DNA from: Gracilibacillus salitolerans
GTDB taxonomy: Bacteria; Bacillota; Bacilli; Bacillales; Amphibacillaceae
Assembly: GCF_009650095.1 (NCBI RefSeq)
Contig: NZ_CP045915.1
Span: forward strand, 2,418,001-2,482,000
DNA: 64,000 bases
Direction of reading: 5' to 3'
Part shown: piece by piece, positions 4,314-61,422 of the stretch
Layout: each line of letters starts with the position of its first letter
How positions within the stretch are numbered: the first letter of the stretch is position 1
Position numbers and translations under genes: made by a program
The notes under the pieces: generated by a model
Databases searched by the model: none
Seen by the model: only the letters and a program-made list of their open reading frames with translations
Told to the model about the DNA's origin: nothing

Positions 4314-5528
4314 ATGCGGGTATTGGTTCAAAAGTTTGGTGGCACGTCTGTAAAGAATAAAGAATCTAGAGAATATGCTATTCGTCATATAAAAGAAGCA
4401 TTAATAGAAGGTTATAAAGTAGTTGTCGTTGTTTCAGCGATGGGGCGTTTTCCAGAGCCATATTCAACAGATGCTTTATTATCCTTAATTGATGGAAATC
4501 ACTCCAAGATAAGTAATAAAGAGAAAGATTTATTATTATCTTGTGGCGAAACTATTTCTGCGACGGTTTTCTCGCATGATCTGCTGGAACATCAAATAAA
4601 TGCTGTTGCTATTCCCGGTGGAGAAGCTGGTATTATTACGACTAGCAATTTTTCCAATGCGCAAATTAAAAGAGTAGATACCAAACATTTATATCATGTT
4701 TTAAGCAACCAACAGGTAGTAGTAGTAGCAGGATTTCAAGGCAAAACGGAGGACAATGAAGTAACAACCATTGGCAGAGGTGGGAGTGATACCTCTGCCA
4801 CTGCATTAGCAGCAGCTTTGCAAGCGGAATATGTAGATATTTTCACAGATGTTAATGGTATTATGACAGCAGATCCTCGAGTTGTTACCAATGCGCAAAA
4901 ATTAGATACCATTTCATATACAGAAATATGTAATCTAGCTTACCAAGGAGCAAAGGTTATTCACCCTCGAGCAGTCGAGATTGCAATGCAGGCCAATGTT
5001 CCAATTAGAGTGCGTTCTACAAAACTTAAGGATAAAGGAACACTTATTACAAATGTACCTGAAACAGATTACTCAGAAAGTGTACATGATCGATTGGCTA
5101 CAGGAATTGCATATGTTAATCAAATTACCCAAATAAAAATTCAAGAGGCAAAAGAACCGGAACAACTGCATGTGAAAGTATTTAAAGCAATGGCTGAAGC
5201 GGGTATTTCCGTCGATTTTATCAATATATCACCAAATGGTGTAATATATACGATATTTAAACGAGATGAAACTTTAGCGAAGCAAGTCTTAGAATCTTTA
5301 AACCTTCAACCGATTATTACCAAAGATTGTGCAAAGATTTCTTTAGTCGGTGCTGGAATGTCAGGTGTTCCCGGTGTTACATCAAAGATCGTACAGACTT
5401 TAACTAGTAAAAATATTCCCATTTTACAATCAGCAGATAGTCATCGAACCATATGGGTCTTAATACAAAATGTTCATTTAGAAACTGCACTTAATGCATT
5501 ACATGAAGCTTTTCGATTAGAAAAATAA
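4314..5528 (+). CDS. dapG: Aspartokinase I, diaminopimelate-sensitive type
   Basis: DapG phosphorylates aspartate, the first step of the aspartate family. The 404-residue protein opens with the kinase motif VQKFGGTSV and carries GRGGSDTSATALAAAL near residue 155 and FTDVNGIMTADPR. Two ACT regulatory domains occupy the C-terminal third. Its place between asd and dapA matches the B. subtilis isozyme used for cell-wall and spore diaminopimelate. No lysine riboswitch is visible upstream, which fits DapG rather than the lysine-regulated LysC isozyme. Confidence 0.95.
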   Translation: MRVLVQKFGGTSVKNKESREYAIRHIKEALIEGYKVVVVVSAMGRFPEPYSTDALLSLIDGNHSKISNKEKDLLLSCGETISATVFSHDLLEHQINAVAIPGGEAGIITTSNFSNAQIKRVDTKHLYHVLSNQQVVVVAGFQGKTEDNEVTTIGRGGSDTSATALAAALQAEYVDIFTDVNGIMTADPRVVTNAQKLDTISYTEICNLAYQGAKVIHPRAVEIAMQANVPIRVRSTKLKDKGTLITNVPETDYSESVHDRLATGIAYVNQITQIKIQEAKEPEQLHVKVFKAMAEAGISVDFINISPNGVIYTIFKRDETLAKQVLESLNLQPIITKDCAKISLVGAGMSGVPGVTSKIVQTLTSKNIPILQSADSHRTIWVLIQNVHLETALNALHEAFRLEK

Positions 5529-5709
5529 AATCTGTAATTTTCTATTTTCTATTGATGAAATCGTATATTCATGGCATAATTATGTTCGCCATTTTTCTAT
5601 ATATGAGCCATATTGTAAAGTCAAAGCAATACATGAAGAAAAGATACAATAATAAATGTTTAGCACATGCAAATAAGGTGAAGGAGATTGGAAAGGAGAT
5701 GGTGACATT

Positions 5710-6582
5710 ATGGATTTCGGAAGATTGTTAACTGCAATGGTGACACCTTTTGATGAGAATAATCGTATGGATTTAAATATAACGTCTCAATTGATAGAAC
5801 ATTTAATTGCTACTGGATCAGAGGGGCTTGTTGTAGCTGGTACAACGGGTGAATCTCCGACATTAAGTCATGAAGAAAAGATATCTTTATTTAAACATGT
5901 TGTTAAGGTAGTGGATGGTCGAGTACCTATTATTGCTGGAACTGGAAGTAATAATACACAGGCTTCCATCGAGCTAACCAAAGAAGCAGAGCAAATAGGA
6001 GTGGATGGAGCATTAGTTGTCACTCCATATTATAATAAACCGAATCAAGAAGGGTTATATCAACATTATGCAGCGATAGCTCAAGAAACCAAATTGCCGA
6101 TAATGTTGTATAATATTCCATCCAGAGCTGTAGTGCGATTGAATGTAGAAACAGTTGTGGCCTTATCGCAAATCGATAACATTGTGGCGGTAAAAGATTC
6201 CACTGGTGATCTGGACGGAATCGCTTCTATACTTGAACAAGTAGATGATGGGTTTTCTGTTTATAGTGGTGACGATTCATTAACCTTACCAATTCTATCT
6301 ATTGGTGGTTCTGGAATTGTTTCTGTTTCTTCCCATATTATTGGCAAAGAAATGAAAGAAATGATTGAGTTATTCGAACAAGGTAAAGTGAAAGAAGCAG
6401 GTCGACTTCACCGTAAGTTACTTCCTATCATGCGTGCATTGTTTATGGCACCATCTCCTTCACCAGTCAAGTCTGCATTGAAATATCAACAAATCGATGT
6501 AGGATCTGTTCGTTTACCATTAGTACCACTATCGCCATTTGAAGAACAAAACCTATTTAGAGTAATTGAATCATTCCAATAA
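5710..6582 (+). CDS. dapA: 4-hydroxy-tetrahydrodipicolinate synthase
   Basis: DapA condenses aspartate semialdehyde with pyruvate, giving the precursor of both diaminopimelate and dipicolinate. It has 290 residues. The Schiff-base lysine is K162 in VAVKDSTGDL, and Y134 in LYNIPSR is the catalytic tyrosine. The glycine-rich GTTGESPTL binds pyruvate. The ATG follows an AAAGGAGATGG ribosome site. The 181-base gap before it is AT-rich with no obvious terminator. A strong terminator follows. Confidence 0.97.
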   Translation: MDFGRLLTAMVTPFDENNRMDLNITSQLIEHLIATGSEGLVVAGTTGESPTLSHEEKISLFKHVVKVVDGRVPIIAGTGSNNTQASIELTKEAEQIGVDGALVVTPYYNKPNQEGLYQHYAAIAQETKLPIMLYNIPSRAVVRLNVETVVALSQIDNIVAVKDSTGDLDGIASILEQVDDGFSVYSGDDSLTLPILSIGGSGIVSVSSHIIGKEMKEMIELFEQGKVKEAGRLHRKLLPIMRALFMAPSPSPVKSALKYQQIDVGSVRLPLVPLSPFEEQNLFRVIESFQ

Positions 6583-42216: not shown

Positions 42217-43548
42217 ATGGGATTAACTAAAGAAGAGATCAAGCAAAGAATTAAAGAGGAAAATGTAAAATTTATCCGCTTGCAGTTCACAGATTTACTT
42301 GGAACAATCAAAAACGTTGAGATTCCATTAAGTCAATTGGATAAAGCTTTAGACAACCAAATGGTATTTGATGGTTCCTCAATCGAAGGTTTTGTACGTA
42401 TTGAAGAATCTGATATGAAGCTTTATCCAGACTTAGATACTTTCGTTGTATTCCCATGGACTTCTGAAAAAGGGAAAGTTGCGCGTTTTATCTGTGATAT
42501 CTATAATACAGATGGTACTCCATTTGAAGGATGTCCTCGTTATAACTTAAAACGTAACCTGAAAAGAGCAGAAGATCTAGGTTTTACTGCCTTTAACATT
42601 GGTACGGAACCAGAATTCTTCTTATTCAAATTAGATGAAAAAGGTGATCCTTCTCTAGAACTTAACGATAAAGGTGGTTATTTTGACCTTGCACCAACAG
42701 ATTTAGGTGAAAACTGCCGTCGCGATATCGTACTTGAACTAGAAGAAATGGGATTTGAAATCGAAGCATCTCACCACGAAGTTGCTCCAGGTCAGCACGA
42801 AATTGATTTTAAATATTCTGATGCTGTTAAGCACGCAGATGATATTCAAACATTTAAACTAGTTGTTAAAACTATTGCACGTAAGCACGGTTTACATGCT
42901 ACATTTATGCCTAAACCACTTTTCGGTGTTAACGGTTCTGGTATGCACTGTAACATGTCATTATTCAAAGGAAAAACAAATACTTTCTTAGATGAAAATG
43001 GACCACTTGAATTAAGTGAGACTGCATATCAATTCATCGCAGGTATTATTAAGCATGCTCTTTCATTTACAGCGGTAACAAACCCAACTGTAAACTCTTA
43101 TAAGCGTCTTGTGCCTGGTTATGAAGCACCTTGTTATGTAGCTTGGTCTGGATCTAACCGTAGCCCATTAATCCGTGTACCAGCTTCTCGTGGATTAAGT
43201 ACACGTGTTGAGGTACGTAGTGTAGACCCAGCTGCTAACCCATACTTAGCTTTATCTGTACTGTTAGCGTCTGGTTTAGACGGAATTGAAAACAAATTAG
43301 AAGCTCCAAAAGCAGTAGATCGCAACATTTATGTAATGGATAAAGAAGAGCGTGAAGCTAATGGAGTAAAAGATTTACCTGCAACATTAGCAGATGCATT
43401 AGATGAATTGAGAAAAGATGAAACAATTGTTGAAGCTCTTGGTGAGCATTTATTCGAACATTTTATCGAATCAAAAGAAATCGAATGGGATATGTTCCGT
43501 ACACAAGTACACCCTTGGGAAAGAGAACAATATATCCAAGCATATTAA
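42217..43548 (+). CDS. glnA: Glutamine synthetase type I
   Basis: GlnA makes glutamine from glutamate, ammonia and ATP. The 443-residue protein has FDGSSIEGF near residue 52, the metal-site block [11 protein letters not shown], the ATP-site block [16 protein letters not shown] and [13 protein letters not shown]. Codons are more regular than in the neighbouring prophage DNA. The last 53 bases, including the [12 protein letters not shown] tail, are duplicated with the terminator at 49758-49854, marking a prophage attachment site that restores the gene end on integration. Confidence 0.98.
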
Positions 43549-43592
43549 TCAGCGGAAACCCTTGGCACTGTTGGTGTCGGGGGTTTTTGTTT
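43496..43592 (+). other. Attachment-site direct repeat, copy 1 (glnA 3' end)
   Basis: This 97-bp segment covers the end of glnA and its terminator. It matches 49758-49854 with two mismatches (TATATCC/TATTTCC and TATTAATC/TATTTATC). Together with the integrase that starts 74 bases further on, it is best read as one hybrid attachment site of an element that targets glnA. Confidence 0.85.
43555..43592 (+). terminator. Intrinsic terminator of glnA
   Basis: AAACCCTTGGCAC pairs with GTGTCGGGGGTTT through G-T pairs around TGTTG and is followed by TTGTTTTG. It lies wholly inside the duplicated attachment segment. Confidence 0.85.
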
Positions 43593-43665: not shown

Positions 43666-44480
43666 TTAATCATCTAATATACTGCTCATGTGATCTTCGT
43701 AACTAATCATATCTTTTTCTTTTATTCGATTTGAGATATGAGCATATACATCTGCGGTAATTTGATAACTCCCATGACCAAGTCTTTCTTGAATAGCTTT
43801 CATATCCCATCCGGCTTCCATTAATAAGACTGCATGTGTATGCCTCAATGAATGAATAGGTAAGTTCGGCAATTCAGCATTTTTTAGTATTCTACTAAAA
43901 GAATTAAATAGTGTACTTTTCGGCATGAAATCTCCATTTTCTCTACACAATACAAGGTTTAAATCATAGTTATATAGTTCCTCGAATTCTTTTTTGTTTT
44001 CATTCTGCCAGGATAAGTGAAATTTGAGTTTATTTAATAATGAATTTCTTAGAGTTATGATTCTAGATGATTTATATGTTTTAGGATCACCAAAAATATC
44101 TTCATTCTCGTCCAAGGGTTTTATTAATCTCCACCGTACCTTCTTTAAATTTTATGTCTGACCATTGAATTTCAGCAGCTTCTCCTTTACGCATTCCAGT
44201 TTCAACAAAAAAATATAAAAATAGCCAATAGATATACCCGTATTGTCTTGCAGATCTTAGAAAAGTTGGAATATCGTATGAGTCTATAAATTTTATAGTT
44301 TTATCCTTGTCTTTTCCTTTAATAACTGCACCTATAGCAGGGTTCCTTTCAAACATATTCAGTTGATATGCTTTTTCGAGTGCGTTTCTAGCGGTACCGT
44401 GTATGATCTCTATTGTGCGCTTAGAATATTTTTTATCGAATAATAGGATATTCTTATAGTATATAATATAATTGTAATGT
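43666..44480 (-). pseudogene. Tyrosine-type phage integrase, truncated and frameshifted
   Basis: The minus strand encodes the catalytic domain of a tyrosine recombinase in two frames. The first part (to about 44105) reads KRTIEIIHGTARNALEKAYQ, then TGMRKGEAAEIQW with catalytic Arg. The second part reads HSLRHTHAVLL (His-x-x-Arg), RLGHGSYQITADVYAHI with the catalytic His and nucleophile Tyr, and stops at 43666. The frame changes near 44102-44115, and the N-terminal arm-binding domain is missing beyond about 44480. The enzyme is therefore dead. It lies right beside the glnA attachment repeat, as expected for the element's own integrase. Confidence 0.85.
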
Positions 44481-45338: not shown

Positions 45339-45593
45339 ATGAAAGAGCAATTAAAAAAAATCGATAACAAATGGGTGAGATTAGTAGTGTTAATTGTTGT
45401 TTTCGTAAATACAGGATTTACTATTGTAGGTACACCGTTATTACCATTTTCAAATGAAGAAATTGTCGTTGGATTAACATTTGCAGCAGATGCCGCAGCT
45501 ATGACTTGGGCGTACTGGAAAAATAACAGTTTTACGTTTGCAGCTAAAGTTGCAGATGATCACTTAAAACAAATGAAGGAGGGTAAGCAATGA
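45339..45593 (+). CDS. Phage holin, SPP1/phi-LC3 family
   Basis: The 84-residue protein has two hydrophobic segments (about 13-35 and 44-60) and the family end WAYWKNNSFTFAAKVADDHLKQMKEG. Holins form membrane lesions that let endolysin reach the wall. The ribosome site is AAGGAGCTGATATAA. Its stop overlaps an ATG that opens only a seven-codon endolysin stub, so the cassette has lost its lysin. Confidence 0.85.
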   Translation: MKEQLKKIDNKWVRLVVLIVVFVNTGFTIVGTPLLPFSNEEIVVGLTFAADAAAMTWAYWKNNSFTFAAKVADDHLKQMKEGKQ

Positions 45594-49652: not shown

Positions 49653-49757
49653 AAAATATAATTAATTTGATTTTGCTTGAGTTTTCAAATAGAAAGAGAT
49701 GCTAGTATAACAATTATTTGAGTTGACTTTATTGCAATTGATTAAGCAGGCATCTAG

Positions 49758-49854
49758 TCCGTACACAAGTACACCCTTGGGAAAGAGAACAATATTTCCA
49801 AGCATATTTATCAGCGGAAACCCTTGGCACTGTTGGTGTCGGGGGTTTTTGTTT
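49758..49854 (+). other. Attachment-site direct repeat, copy 2
   Basis: A 97-bp near-copy of the glnA 3' end and terminator, lacking the rest of glnA. It marks the right end of the element at 43.6-49.76 kb. The following integrase scrap in the same orientation shows that a second element used the same site, so two elements once stood in tandem. Confidence 0.85.
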
Positions 49855-50326: not shown

Positions 50327-51180
50327 CTAGGCTGCCTTTGCCCTGAATTGAACAGGAGAAAGGCAGTTTAATTTTGAAAATGGTCGTATATAGTTGTAAT
50401 AATACATGTACAATTCCACTTTTTCTAGTACAATGGAATTTGTAAGACGCATCTTTTGATGTGTGTAGAATTCTTCCGACTTTATGGTGGAGTGGAAGGA
50501 TTCAATGACGGCATTATCAAAGCAATTACCTTTCCGGGACATGCTTGTGATAATGCCTTTTTCTTCAGCTAATTCTTGAAAAGCGTAGGATGTGTATTGA
50601 GCCCTTGATCACTATGAAGAATTAATCCCTTTGTTTCACGTCCATTACAAGCTGCTTTCAGTGTTTCTAGCACTAATTCTTCTTCTTGGTTATGACTCAC
50701 TCGATAAGCGACAATTTCGTTATTATACAAATCCATAATGGTTGATAAATACATCATTGATTCCCCAAAAGGCAAGTAAGTAATATCAGTAACCCACTTT
50801 TGATTTGGTCTATCTGCCTTGAAATTTTGTTCCAATAAATTAGGAACGACGCATTTACTTTCACCGGCGATGTTCGATTTTCTCTTTGGTTTTACCCGAC
50901 ATTGGATTTTATATTTTTGCATGATCCTTTGTGCAGTAAGTCTGTTCACAGAAATGTTGTGTTCCTCTTTAAGTAACTTTTTAACCATTCGGTGTCCTAC
51001 TCTGTAATGTAGGGATTTACAAATATCAATAATAAGTTGTTCTAGTTCTGTTGGCTCCCACGACTTTTGAGCCCAACGATAGTAAGTGGACCTAGGAACT
51101 CTGATACAATCACAAATCATCGATACAGTATAAACTTCCTTTAACGACTCTACTAGTTCTATAACTATCTCTGGTACCAA
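50327..51180 (-). pseudogene. IS3 transposase OrfB with a one-base frameshift
   Basis: OrfB starts at 51180 and shows the integrase catalytic core: first Asp in WVTDITYLPF, second Asp in LHSDQG, Glu in NAVIESFHSTIKSE. The frame breaks near 50601-50605, right after HSDQG, where a one-base deletion shifts reading; restoring a base gives AQYTSYAFQELAEEKGIITSMSR into the second part (50327-50542). The element should be unable to transpose alone. The overlap with orfA suggests normal programmed frameshifting in intact relatives. Confidence 0.85.
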
Positions 51181-51488
51181 CTCCTTTCGATTTCCTGGTA
51201 CTTTTTTAAGATTTCATTTTGGATTTCTAGATGTCTGATTTGCCTTTTTAACTGATCTACTTCGTTTAGTTCTTCAGGCCCTTTTCCAAAGGAATATTGT
51301 TTACCGATGGGTTGTGACAACCGATGTTCTTCTCCATCTCGAAACCATTTCATCCATCTTTTAATTTGACTTACGCTACGGATTCCAAACTTTTTCATAA
51401 TCTGTTTATTTGTATATTTTTTAGACAACTTCATTTCAATGACTCTACGTTTCACTTCTTCAGAATAAACATTTTTCTTTTCCCCCAT
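51165..51488 (-). CDS. IS3 transposase OrfA
   Basis: The 107-residue protein has a helix-turn-helix (YTNKQIMKKFGIRSVSQIKRW) and a leucine-zipper-like end (VDQLKRQIRHLEIQNEILKK). It binds the element's ends and combines with OrfB. It overlaps orfB by 16 bases. The ribosome site AGGAGGTGC precedes the ATG. Confidence 0.88.
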   Translation of the reverse strand: MGEKKNVYSEEVKRRVIEMKLSKKYTNKQIMKKFGIRSVSQIKRWMKWFRDGEEHRLSQPIGKQYSFGKGPEELNEVDQLKRQIRHLEIQNEILKKYQEIERSWYQR

Positions 51489-51678: not shown

Positions 51679-51975
51679 TCATTTCTCTTTATCATTTTTA
51701 AATTCAGTGGGATCATTTTCCTCCGCAAACTCAGTAGAATAGGTTAAATTTCTGCCTCTCGCACTCTCTCTTTCATCCTCATCTGCTGGAGCAAACAATA
51801 AAGGTAAACAGAGCAAGGCGCCAATTCCCACCAATGTATAGATTACTCTGGACAGTGCAGCATCTTGTCCTCCGAATATAGCTGCAACCAAATCAAATTG
51901 AAATAATCCAATTAACCCCCAGTTTATACCACCAATAATTACTAATGCTAAAGCAATACGTTTTATTGTATCCAT
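51679..51975 (-). CDS. DUF378 family membrane protein
   Basis: The 98-residue protein has the DUF378 core: IALALVIIGGINWGLIGLFQFDLVA, then a second membrane helix YTLVGIGALLCLPLLF. A polar acidic tail of about 35 residues follows and is longer than usual for the family. The ribosome site AAAGGAGGCG is strong. Function unknown; such genes are scattered in Bacillaceae. Confidence 0.88.
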   Translation of the reverse strand: MDTIKRIALALVIIGGINWGLIGLFQFDLVAAIFGGQDAALSRVIYTLVGIGALLCLPLLFAPADEDERESARGRNLTYSTEFAEENDPTEFKNDKEK

Positions 51976-53245: not shown

Positions 53246-53437
53246 TTAAGCATAGTATAATAATCTTTAGTATTTAAAGTATTTAAGGTTTGTGATACTC
53301 TACTTTAAGTACATAATATCACTCTTATAAAAACATTAAGAGCAAGAATAAAAAGTTGTAAAAAGAAAACACCCGACTATAAAACCAAGTCCAAAAATTA
53401 TCTGGAGAACTTTATTCTAAAAAGTAATCGGAAATGA

Positions 53438-53443
53438 TATAAT
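53438..53443 (+). promoter_or_regulatory. Extended -10 promoter candidate for the erm leader
   Basis: TATAAT preceded by TGA, 26 bases before the first leader ATG. The -35 region is weak. Confidence 0.45.
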
Positions 53444-53468
53444 AAGTTTTATAAGGGAGGATTCAAAT

Positions 53469-53516
53469 ATGTGCACCAGTATTGCAGTAGTAGATTTTAC
53501 TTTATCTCTTTCATAA
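53469..53516 (+). CDS. Erm leader peptide 1 (ErmAL1-like), 15 residues
   Basis: ATG after AAGGGAGG opens MCTSIAVVDFTLSLS. This matches the first leader of staphylococcal erm(A), MCTSIAVVEITLSHS, with the macrolide-dependent arrest sequence IAVV intact and Asp in place of Glu as the next residue. Ribosome arrest here is expected to open a hairpin (53499-53512 with 53528-53543) that otherwise hides the ribosome site of leader 2. Confidence 0.85.
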   Translation: MCTSIAVVDFTLSLS

Positions 53517-53667
53517 TGAAAAGATTGGAAAGGAGATAAAAGTATGGGTATATTTTCTATATTTGTCATTAAATGAGTTCATTATCAACCAAATCAAAAA
53601 TAATTGGTTATAATGAACTCTTATGGTCAGTTCATTATAACCAGCAAGGAGAAGGTTATAATGAACC
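53499..53667 (+). promoter_or_regulatory. Two-stage translational attenuator of erm
   Basis: ACTTTATCTCTTTC (53499) can pair with GAAAGGAGATAAAAGT (53528), masking the leader-2 ribosome site. Further on, GAGTTCATTATCAACCAA (53575), TTGGTTATAATGAACTC (53604), GTTCATTATAACC (53630) and GGTTATAATGAACC (53654) are alternating complements; pairing of the last two masks the erm ribosome site and ATG. This is the erm(A) design: two arrests in series switch the gene on. Confidence 0.85.
53544..53576 (+). CDS. Erm leader peptide 2 (ErmAL2-like), shortened to 10 residues
   Basis: ATG after AAGGAGATAAAAGT opens MGIFSIFVIK and then TGA. The known ErmAL2/ErmCL leaders run to 19 residues and share the IFVI arrest motif. 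Here the rest of the ancestral peptide (VHYQPNQK) is still readable in the same frame after the stop, to TAA at 53601-53603. The arrest motif and the pairing RNA are kept; only the peptide tail is lost. Confidence 0.8.
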   Translation: MGIFSIFVIK

Positions 53668-54392
53668 AGAAAAACCCAAAAGACACGCAAAATTTTATTA
53701 CTTCTAAAAAGCATGTAAAAGAAATATTGAATCATACGAATATCAATAAACAAGACAATGTAATAGAAATCGGAGCAGGAAAAGGGCATTTTACCAAAGA
53801 ACTAGTCGAAATGAGTCGGTCGGTGACTGCTATAGAAATTGAAGAAGACTTATGTCGAACCACTCAAAAAGCGGTGGAGCCTTTTCAGAATATAAAAGTC
53901 ATCCATACAGATATTCTGAAATTTGCCTTCCCCAAAAATGCAGACTATAAAATATATGGTAATATTCCCTTTAATATCAGTACTGATATTGTCAAAAAAA
54001 TCGCTTTTGAAAGCCGGTCGAAATATAGTTACCTTCTCGTGGAGGAAGGTTTTGCGAAAAGGTTGCAAAACACGCAACGGGCTTTAGGCTTGCTGTTGAT
54101 GGTGGAAATAGACATAAAAATCCTAAAAAAAGTGCCACGAGCATATTTTCACCCTAAGCCAAGTGTAGATTCTGTATTGATCGTACTTGAACGACATAAA
54201 TCATTGATTTTAAAAAAAGACTACAAAAAGTATCAATCGTTTGTTTATAAATGGGTAAACAGAGAATATCATGTTCTTTTTACTAAAAACCAATTCCGAC
54301 AGGCCTTGAAGCATGCAAATGTCACAAATTTTAATAAACTATCAAAGGAACAATTTATATCTATTTTCAATAGTTACAAATTGTTTCACTAA
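53661..54392 (+). CDS. erm: Erm(A)-like 23S rRNA adenine N6-methyltransferase
   Basis: Erm methylates A2058 of 23S rRNA and gives resistance to macrolides, lincosamides and streptogramin B. The ATG at 53661 follows AAGGAGA and gives 243 residues, the length of staphylococcal Erm(A), with which it shares the opening [20 protein letters not shown] and the end FNSYKLFH. The SAM loop is EIGAGKGHF (36-44). The catalytic motif is N101-I-P-F104, with Phe where Erm(A)/Erm(C) have Tyr; an aromatic ring is kept. Many scattered substitutions suggest an old, diverged allele and not a recent clinical transfer. A terminator follows. Confidence 0.93.
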
Positions 54393-54403
54393 ATGAAATG
54401 TAA

Positions 54404-54442
54404 CGAAGCGTTCTCTAGTTCCTTAGAGTACGCTTTTCTTTC
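54404..54442 (+). terminator. Intrinsic terminator after erm
   Basis: AAGCGTTCTCTA pairs with TAGAGTACGCTT (one mismatch) around a six-base loop, followed by TTCTTTC. Confidence 0.85.
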
Positions 54443-54577
54443 AAAAAAATTTTCAAAAATAAAAATCAATCAGTTGTTTTACAACATAAAAGATAAGGTG
54501 CTTTTATCTTTTGGCATGACCTCTATAGCTATAGACAGAAATAAAAACCGACTTAATTTATTGAGAAAGCAACTATT

Positions 54578-54835: not shown

Positions 54836-54974
54836 GCATCTCAACTGTGGTGCTTTTTTATACCCAAAATAAAGAGGGAGTCTGATCTCCCTCTAGCACT
54901 CTATAATATAGGGGGTTTAAAGTGCTTCTTATATTATACGAGTGAAGTCGGATTTTGAAGGGGGTTGAGCATGT
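54836..54974 (+). repeat. Lysis-module leader repeat, copy 2
   Basis: Near-copy of 44908-45050, from GCATCTCA ... GTGGTGCTTTTTT through the GGGAG/CTCCC hairpin to the ATG of the second xhlA-like gene. Confidence 0.8.
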
Positions 54975-55279
54975 CACAATCACAGAAGGAAGTGGAGGAT
55001 ATGGAAAAATTCATGACAGTGCTCATGGAGGTAAAAGGATCGCTCGCCACTCAAAACGAAAAACTAGATACGCTATTAGATCTTAAACCGAAAATAGAAG
55101 CTGCTTACGACACAGCAAACAGTGCTGATAGACGATCTCTAGAAAATGAAAAGGATACTGATCGACTAAGAGAAAAAATAAGTACAAGAGCGAGCAAATC
55201 AGATGTGGAAAGAATTGTGCAAGAAAAAGACAATTGGAAAAAGAACTTACCTCATAGGAGATGGCTATTATTTTGCTAA
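54971..55279 (+). pseudogene. XhlA-like protein, C-terminal anchor lost
   Basis: Starting at the ATG at 54971 after GAAGGGGGTTGAGC, the frame gives MSQSQKEVEDMEKFMTVLME, a helical coiled-coil region and KEKDNWKKNL-like residues, and then runs into unrelated sequence (PHRRWLLFC) and a stop. The expected C-terminal membrane helix is absent; it lies on the opposite strand at 55505-55588 in an inverted piece. Confidence 0.7.
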
Positions 55280-55500
55280 TCCTTTTTTCTTCAGTTCTTC
55301 TCTTTGTTGTCTACCTTTTAGCGTAAGGTAGTTATTCTTAAACCAAGTTCACACGCTAACTACAGTTGTTAACCCTAATGCCATTGATTCTTCAGTAACT
55401 ACCGGAATAGCATCTAAACTTGCTTGTTCTAACCATACGTTAATCCAAACGAAAACAAGCGAACAGTCCTACAATGGTTCCTTTATCCATGTGTATCACC
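55268..55500 (-). pseudogene. Inverted SPP1-family holin, frameshifted and with a nonsense codon
   Basis: On the minus strand ATG at 55500 after GGGAGGTGATACAC opens MDKGTIVGLFA; one frame change leads to VWINVWLEQASLDAIPVV, then TEESMALGLTTVVSV, a TGA where Trp is expected, and TWFKNNYLTLKGRQQ with REELKKKGLAK to the stop at 55268. The order of motifs is that of SPP1 holins. It lies in the opposite direction to the surrounding xhlA and lysin fragments. Confidence 0.75.
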
Positions 55501-55504
55501 TCCC

Positions 55505-55590
55505 TTAATTAATATTTAAAAATGGCAAAATTAAAGCGATAGCTGCTATAGCTACCGCCACCCATGCTAAGATCTTTGATTTAAAGAAGA
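55505..55590 (-). pseudogene. Inverted XhlA C-terminal membrane anchor
   Basis: The minus strand reads FFKSKILAWVAVAIAAIALI, then LPFLNIN and a stop at 55505, four bases before the holin ribosome site. It is the missing end of an xhlA gene, in its natural order before holin but inverted. Confidence 0.65.
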
Positions 55591-55595
55591 AAGTG

Positions 55596-55974
55596 AAGGC
55601 AACAAATCCTAATGCAGTTATTGGAAAGAAAAAGACTGCTATCTTAAAAGTAGATGGCAAGTGGGGTAATGCAACTACAAGAGCATTGCAAAAATATTTA
55701 GGAACTACAATAGTTGGGATTAGAAGTGATCAGGTACGTAACAGCGTAACAAACGCTTTTTATGGGACTACTATTGGCTTTGGTAGGGTAAAAAGGGTAG
55801 CTTAGTCATTAAAGCGTTACAAAGCAAGATAGTTGCTATGTGGATGGTTTACTAGGACCTGAAACAATCGGTAAGTTGCAACAGTATTTTGGTATTGTTT
55901 ATGATAAGAAATTAAGTAGGCCGTCGCTTGTAGTCGAAGAGTTACAACGTCGTTTGAATGCAGGCACATTTTAA
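55596..55974 (+). pseudogene. Endolysin C-terminal fragment, copy 3
   Basis: The frame reads KATNPNAVIGKKKTAILKVD, GKWGNATTRALQKYLG and VRNSVTNAFYG, shifts near 55785, and continues KGSLVIKALQSKI, VDGLLGPETIGKLQQYFG and LSRPSLVVEELQRRLNAGTF to a stop near 55974. It carries two peptidoglycan-binding-like repeats of a phage lysin and no catalytic domain. At least two frame changes are present. Confidence 0.7.
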
Positions 55975-56004
55975 TAAGTTGTGAATACAATTTATGTAGT
56001 TAAA

Positions 56005-61377: not shown

Positions 61378-61422
61378 AGTAACCCTTGGCACTCTTGGTG
61401 CCAGGGTTTCCTTTTTTATCTT
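61378..61422 (+). terminator. Intrinsic terminator resembling the glnA terminator
   Basis: AACCCTTGGCAC pairs with GTGCCAGGGTT around five bases, followed by TCCTTTTTT. The left arm AACCCTTGGCACT and TTGGTG repeat the glnA attachment core. The gap 61266-61629 has no gene. Confidence 0.82.

Follow-up and report, generated by a model that had tools for sequence, protein, structure and literature searches.

A divergent erm(A) cassette with two leader peptides and a fossil Tn554-family tnpC end in a decayed prophage region of Gracilibacillus salitolerans

The window analysed here, a 64,000-nucleotide stretch of the Gracilibacillus salitolerans genome, is part of a single 5.09-Mb contig. On its forward strand it carries erm(A), encoding a 243-aa 23S rRNA (adenine-2058-N6) methyltransferase, at 53661..54392. 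This frame is open and is nested in a longer one that begins at a TTG at 53604. Against the NCBIfam model for Erm(A) (NF012222) the gene scored 513.6 bits at a cut-off of 475. Erm proteins are assigned to a class when they are at least 80% identical in amino-acid sequence to the class type. The window protein was 84.4% identical to Erm(A) of Tn554 (86.4% at the DNA level) and 88.5% identical to an allele that we label TR type (89.0% at the DNA level), for which the database records say erm(A). The highest protein identity, 95.9%, was found for the copy of G. lacisalsi DSM 19029, which NCBI already names Erm(A). Erm(A)-like proteins of Oceanobacillus, Bacillus, Amphibacillus and Salinicoccus reached 79-84%, while Erm(C) and Erm(T)-like proteins reached 58-60% and Erm(B) 50%. 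The catalytic motif reads NIPF in the window protein and NIPY in Erm(A) of Tn554; a phenylalanine at this residue occurred in 23 of the 99 motif-bearing Erm proteins, the window's included, among 121 proteins scanned. A first-pass annotation of the locus, made from the DNA letters, had described an Erm(A)-like methyltransferase with many substitutions, and these values are in agreement with both statements. The window gene thus represents a divergent, apparently intact erm(A) in a salt-loving bacterium.

Upstream of the gene lie two short open reading frames, each preceded by a Shine-Dalgarno site. Leader 1 (MCTSIAVVDFTLSLS, 53469..53516) has 15 codons followed by TAA, contains the stall motif IAVV and starts at offset -192 from the erm start at 53661. 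Leader 2 (MGIFSIFVIK, 53544..53576) starts at offset -117, has 10 codons with the motif IFVI and ends on a TGA at 53574-53576; its Shine-Dalgarno sequence AAGGAG is located at 53530-53535. Ahead of both leaders we read a putative extended -10 promoter (TGATATAAT, 53435..53443) that has no -35 match and at which a two-hexamer promoter scan made no call. Behind the gene a stem followed by a T-rich stretch (54403..54445) forms a possible intrinsic terminator, for which a terminator scan likewise made no call. In most relatives compared, a TATAAT-like box is found at the same place as in the window, 3' of the tnpC relic described below, which points to a self-contained unit of promoter, attenuator and gene.

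Folding and the pairing across relatives define three hairpins in the leader transcript. Arms 1 and 2 (53501-53517/53524-53540) mask the Shine-Dalgarno site of leader 2, arms 3 and 4 (53575-53592/53604-53620) form a decoy, and arms 5 and 6 (53630-53642/53654-53666) sequester the erm start. Alternatively, arm 4 can pair with arm 5 in a perfect helix of 13 bp (53606-53618/53630-53642), such that the structures hiding the leader-2 Shine-Dalgarno site and the erm start take part in mutually exclusive pairing. For the stretch 53570-53670 a folding energy of -34.4 kcal/mol was obtained versus a shuffle mean of -12.7, with none of 300 shuffles as low. The leader as a whole (53450-53690) had a z-score of -5.5, again with 0 of 300 shuffles as low. 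The leader-2 Shine-Dalgarno hairpin by itself provided weaker, modest evidence, with a z-score of -1.8 and 14 of 300 shuffles reaching as low an energy.

Conservation of the pairing was assessed in an alignment of the window with ten relatives that were picked for a complete or nearly complete attenuator. In these 11 sequences 95.8% of the pair cells were still paired compared to at most 51% for slid partners, and the alternative helix between arms 4 and 5 was kept in all cells. Covariation above the shuffle level was not found in the 11 sequences (339 of 500 shuffles scored as high), such that covariation had to be rejected as proof of the hairpins. Support for the helices therefore comes from conservation and from the logic of the arrangement rather than from compensatory change. 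Rfam, applied to the window at gathering thresholds, gave no match. With the same arms as in staphylococcal erm(A), the alternating hairpins conform to the design that the first reading had assigned to them. Two relatives from B. renqingensis and Salinicoccus (L009, L034) naturally miss part of the attenuator.

The arrangement of leaders and arms allows a mode of induction to be proposed. In absence of the drug, arm 1:2 would cover the ribosome site of leader 2, while arms 3:4 and 5:6 would cover the erm start. A macrolide-bound ribosome would stall at IAVV of leader 1 and open arm 1:2, making leader 2 readable. A second ribosome would then stall at IFVI of leader 2, over arm 3, upon which arm 4 could pair with arm 5, arm 6 would become free and Erm would be made. 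Methylation of A2058 of the 23S rRNA by Erm would provide MLSB resistance, and this modification, controlled by translational attenuation, is most likely the role of the window gene. Two models exist for staphylococcal ermA (PMC8274638): serial leader stalling as proposed here, and a role of leader 1 in mRNA stability. The sequence data favour neither over the other. A 2024 study of erm leaders postulated that leaders and palindromes have possibly evolved independently (PMC11264731).

Where the window departs from the familiar layout is the length of leader 2. Most Erm(A)-like relatives that have this leader, among them Tn554, Oceanobacillus, Amphibacillus, Bacillus sp. SD088 and the Anaerococcus type, possess 19 codons instead of 10. 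Both Gracilibacillus copies stop at codon 11, with TGA in the window and TAA in G. lacisalsi. The attenuator had been called an intact two-leader attenuator; this holds for the presence of both leaders, their stall motifs and their Shine-Dalgarno sites, while the truncation of leader 2 had gone unremarked. The leading edge of the ribosome extends about 17 nt beyond the P site (PMC6238534). In the window, the stop codon of leader 2 overlaps the start of arm 3. Taking codon 9 as the presumable stall codon, a ribosome stalled there and a ribosome terminating at codon 11 both reach approximately 53585-53588, within arm 3, while a ribosome terminating on a 19-codon leader 2 would reach arm 4 instead. 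With stalled and terminating ribosomes both reaching arm 3, a 10-codon leader whose stop lies beside the stall site may therefore alter basal expression.

One could also regard the shortened leader 2 as a sign of decay, the cassette being a passenger of a dead prophage that is no longer expressed or inducible. The neighbourhood is indeed decayed, and neither an Rfam match nor a promoter call at the expected site was obtained. However, the ratio dN/dS between the two Gracilibacillus copies is approximately 0.16 (0.0157/0.096), the gene is open, both Shine-Dalgarno sites, the stall motifs and all arms are kept, and the early stop occurs at the same codon in both copies although it is spelled differently. 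We therefore consider decay of the cassette to be unlikely.

Compared to known systems, the window resembles most features of the Tn554 ermA (pWBG4, NZ_KX149096, L156): gene length, leader offsets of -192 and -117, the motifs IAVV and IFVI and the hairpins are the same. The differences within the control region are the 19-codon leader 2 of Tn554 and a glutamate at codon 9 of its leader 1. The closest named mobile allele is the TR type, represented by the Lactococcus garvieae plasmid pLG1267-optrA (L155), where it is located near optrA, and by S. suis (L003-L007). The sampled TR cassettes contain leader 1 only, at offset -76, and miss the leader-2 stretch, whereas the window has both leaders. 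Erm(A) of G. lacisalsi (L002, P0002) has the same short leader 2 as the window. The alleles of Oceanobacillus, Amphibacillus, Bacillus sp. SD088 and B. renqingensis possess two leaders, as the window does, where the upstream stretch is complete. Stall motifs and Shine-Dalgarno sites accompany the two leaders in relatives as well.

Leaders were also seen before more distant erm genes. Five relatives with Erm proteins of 58-61% identity (L166-L169 and L173), which all belong to a single genus (g14) within the same family, have leaders in front of erm; IAVV occurs in both leaders of L167, L168, L169 and L173, while for L166 leader 1 alone passed the motif filter. Two further loci (L051, L170) have FVI motifs in both leaders. 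The arrangement with two leaders may predate Erm(A). In two other relatives (L041, L042) a 70% identical Erm stands behind a TR-type promoter and leader stretch, a combination reminiscent of a modular exchange of gene and control region.

The surroundings of the gene agree with the initial description of a chromosomal site in a decayed prophage region. In a domain scan, 43666-44112 matched an integrase domain and 45339-45590 a holin of the SPP1 type. The fragmented transposase at 50327-51488 was read as IS3-type from its rve and HTH domains. Directly 3' of erm, remnants of a prophage lysis module (54905..55976, forward strand) include an XhlA-like stretch recognised by eye at 54965-55279 and share repeats with 44.9 kb and 50.1 kb; Pfam gave no match for two pieces of this remnant. 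The 3' end of glnA together with its terminator is present as a direct repeat (43487-43592 and 49749-49854, 94% identity); a third, weak copy at 61381-61417 (81%) is limited to the terminator part. We infer that this repeat is the attachment-site scar of an integrated element; erm is located beyond its second copy. Copies of the glnA end downstream of glnA, on the glnA contig, were found in further Gracilibacillus genomes (G008, G015 and G016 among others), which makes the glnA-lexA interval of the genus an apparent hotspot of integration. A search of the genus for the window site in an erm-free state yielded no clean junction. A DUF378 gene at 51679-51972 is one of numerous diverged copies found throughout the genus. 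In both carriers such a gene is close to erm, in a different arrangement; this proximity is probably due to chance. Elsewhere, a gene for an 82% identical Erm(A) was seen at 4673-5732 of a sequence from a viral collection (IMGVR_UViG_3300011842_000029, L189), by eye among apparent phage tail and capsid genes and a transposase; the reading frame before this erm resembles a fragment of dihydroxy-acid dehydratase and runs into the attenuator.

Immediately upstream of the erm promoter, at 53324..53427 on the forward strand, we found the decayed remnant of a tnpC (DUF6262) gene of the Tn554 family, of which roughly 34 codons at the 3' end and the stop are left. TnpC of Tn554 matched this stretch with 51.6% identity over 31 aa (E 0.001). 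At the DNA level its 104 nt aligned to the last 106 nt of Tn554 tnpC with 77 of 103 positions identical (75%), 26 different and 3 gap columns, and the alignment ends on the stop codon. A 100-nt query scored 57 against tnpC compared to a maximum of 40 among 1000 shuffles, and scores elsewhere in the window were at most 36 (38 in an overlapping scan chunk). A profile built from 76 TnpC proteins matched the relic with 20 bits (i-E 9.4e-5) in a search of 24 loci in six frames. The relic contains two in-frame stops before its end and reads towards erm. In Tn554, by contrast, ermA points against tnpC and is accompanied by intact tnpABC, ant(9) and a SAM methyltransferase gene. No homologue of tnpA, tnpB, ant(9) or the SAM methyltransferase and no intact Tn554-like element was found beside the window gene, and a search for DUF6262 in G000 gave no match over the cut-off. 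Other matches to TnpA or TnpB (E <= 0.001) covered 30-90 aa at 25-43% identity and lie at 43.7-44.0 and 50.0 kb, among decayed integrases. An intact Tn554-like element around the gene was thus rejected, with the tnpC 3' relic as the only trace. The first-pass annotation had placed the gene outside any Tn554-like transposon and had asked for transposon ends around 53.4-54.5 kb. It was right in that no such element persists, while full independence from the family does not hold, as the decayed tnpC end that it had missed abuts the promoter. The relic suggests that the erm(A) of the window once travelled on the same transposon family as the clinical gene.

Traces of the same scar were sought upstream of other erm genes by comparing the relic stretch with shuffled sequences. 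None of 500 shuffles equalled the match of G. lacisalsi, of the TR type (over 53363-53427) or of either of two relatives whose Erm is 70% identical. The match to Tn554-type ermA was weaker and covered 53386-53422 only (9 and 13 of 500 shuffles as good). Comparing the upstream stretches with tnpC itself was unconvincing, with 13 of 500 shuffles as good for G. lacisalsi, 58 for TR and 137 for Tn554; the identity of the scar in these three therefore rests on homology with the better-kept copy of the window. O. manasiensis, G135 and G292 did not match the window relic (355, 348 and 53 of 500 shuffles as good) and scored marginally against tnpC (15, 17 and 21 of 500), about as well as G. lacisalsi. 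Salinicoccus (2 of 500) and Bacillus sp. SD088 (14 of 500) matched short bits of the relic at another place. For B. renqingensis (459 of 500) and the clostridial-type alleles (51 and 47 of 500) no significant match to the relic was obtained. The comparison covered those alleles whose contigs extend upstream of leader 1, the point at which the Amphibacillus contig begins. Overall, the scar is not clearly seen upstream of the Oceanobacillus and Bacillus alleles.

In an 81-row protein tree rooted on Erm(B), the window and G. lacisalsi formed a pair (support 99) that grouped with the alleles of the TR and clostridial types (95) to the exclusion of the Tn554 type. A bootstrapped 42-row tree kept the pair (100/99), though its deeper order was weak and the Tn554 branch was placed elsewhere. 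In a DNA tree the smallest well-supported set holding the window consisted of the same pair (100/99). The Erm(A) rows separated from the Erm(C)- and Erm(T)-like rows with 100/100 in the DNA and 42-row trees; the 81-row tree agrees on this split with a lower support for the larger group (88). Protein and DNA trees thus place the window gene within the Erm(A) clade and separate it from Erm(B), Erm(C) and Erm(T), and together with the identities they speak against both near-identity to a clinical allele and a placement outside the clade. Forcing a set of 14 Bacillaceae rows into one clade was rejected (p-AU 7e-5), while forcing Tn554 and TR types into one clade without Gracilibacillus was not (p-AU 0.32); these groups were picked after seeing the 81-row tree, such that the p-values serve as guides only. 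As judged from the trees, the window gene is a relative and not an ancestor of the clinical alleles. A link of erm(A) to Bacillales has already been published by Lund et al. 2022 (PMC8914350), who call the origins of erm genes unclear, and a survey of erm clusters lists genes of Oceanobacillus iheyensis and Bacillus thermoamylovorans (PMC5939627).

The distribution of the gene is patchy. Among 17 Gracilibacillus genomes, two of them less than 90% complete, it occurred in 2. Within the family 8 of 159 genomes had a match of at least 79%, and within the order 3 of 397 sampled genomes reached E 1e-100, both counts including the two Gracilibacillus genomes. Comparison with a 16.7-kb locus of G. 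lacisalsi revealed a common cassette of 1.22 kb with 95% DNA identity (53335..54557, forward strand), whose left edge lies about 11 nt or less from that of the tnpC relic. The sole further match of this locus to the window is the DUF378 gene (81%). In G. lacisalsi the cassette is inserted behind sufB, adjoining an apparent integrase relic, rather than within the glnA-lexA interval. The two erm copies differ by a dS of 0.096. For eight other genes it was 0.37 (recA), 0.21 (glnA), 0.37 (sufB), 0.29 (sufU), 0.56 (sufS), 0.85 (mutS), 0.76 (mutL) and 0.81 (miaA). The different loci and the low dS of erm show that the cassette was exchanged after the two species had split. From the window erm to the TR and Tn554 alleles dS was 0.39 and 0.52, which argues against a recent escape from clinical bacteria. 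A DNA-level search of plasmids returned 1469 matching records, 101 at 80-90% and 1368 at 60-80% identity, and none above 90%; at the protein level one record fell in the band of 90-95%. In a phage collection 9 of 50,697 records matched, all of them Streptococcus suis phages with 14% query coverage, one being annotated as erm(B).

Taken together, we consider it very probable that the window holds a functional-looking, macrolide-inducible erm(A) cassette that was horizontally gained in a decayed prophage region and that preserves, at its left edge, the fossil remainder of a Tn554-family tnpC 3' end. The gene had previously been seen as an old, possibly environmental ancestor lineage of the clinical gene. 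Its divergence is real, yet ancestry is weakened by the trees, by the two carriers among 17 genomes and by the exchange after the species split. In its strict form, ancestry would mean a vertically inherited gene that was already resident before the genus diversified and from which the clinical alleles arose. The chromosomal location, the environmental Bacillaceae with Erm(A) genes at 79-84% identity and the published link to Bacillales and Oceanobacillus (PMC8914350) would fit. Vertical inheritance within Gracilibacillus is nevertheless rejected by the patchy presence, the different loci and the low dS of erm compared to 0.21-0.85 in the other genes, and the tnpC scar implies earlier mobility, leaving such a resident gene highly improbable. 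Least probable of all is a recent spill-back from the clinical or livestock pool of Tn554 or erm(TR), to which the common scar stretch, the end of both Tn554- and TR-type cassette matches at 54484 and the single plasmid record at 90-95% protein identity could point, since dS values of 0.39 and 0.52 are far too large for a transfer in the antibiotic era and none of the DNA-level plasmid matches exceeds 90%.

Going beyond the horizontally gained cassette, we tentatively raise the possibility that the Gracilibacillus gene and the mobile alleles, i.e. the TR type and, in more decayed form, Tn554 ermA, descend from a single capture event, in which a self-contained erm cassette was inserted immediately behind a Tn554-family tnpC and in the same direction. 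The captured cassette would have contained the extended -10 promoter, the attenuator, the gene and the terminator. The short leader 2 would then be a second-generation attenuator, on which a terminating ribosome would park almost where a stalled one does. We regard this proposal as doubtful, and somewhat more so in view of the marginal tnpC scores of three alleles that had been counted as free of the scar. If it were true, the scar would mark this mobilisation event, ermA of Tn554 would stem from a different transposon of the Tn554 family, and the scar-free Oceanobacillus and Bacillus alleles would represent the state before mobilisation.

The erm(A) of the window reveals no new resistance mechanism. 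Its two informative peculiarities are the tnpC scar and the short leader 2; neither these nor an erm(A) in Gracilibacillus was reported among the literature matches listed, which cover work outside closed access. The two-leader layout extends beyond staphylococci to several environmental Bacillaceae. A two-leader erm(A) together with a transposon scar in common with mobile alleles provides a concrete molecular marker for the mobilisation of the cassette.
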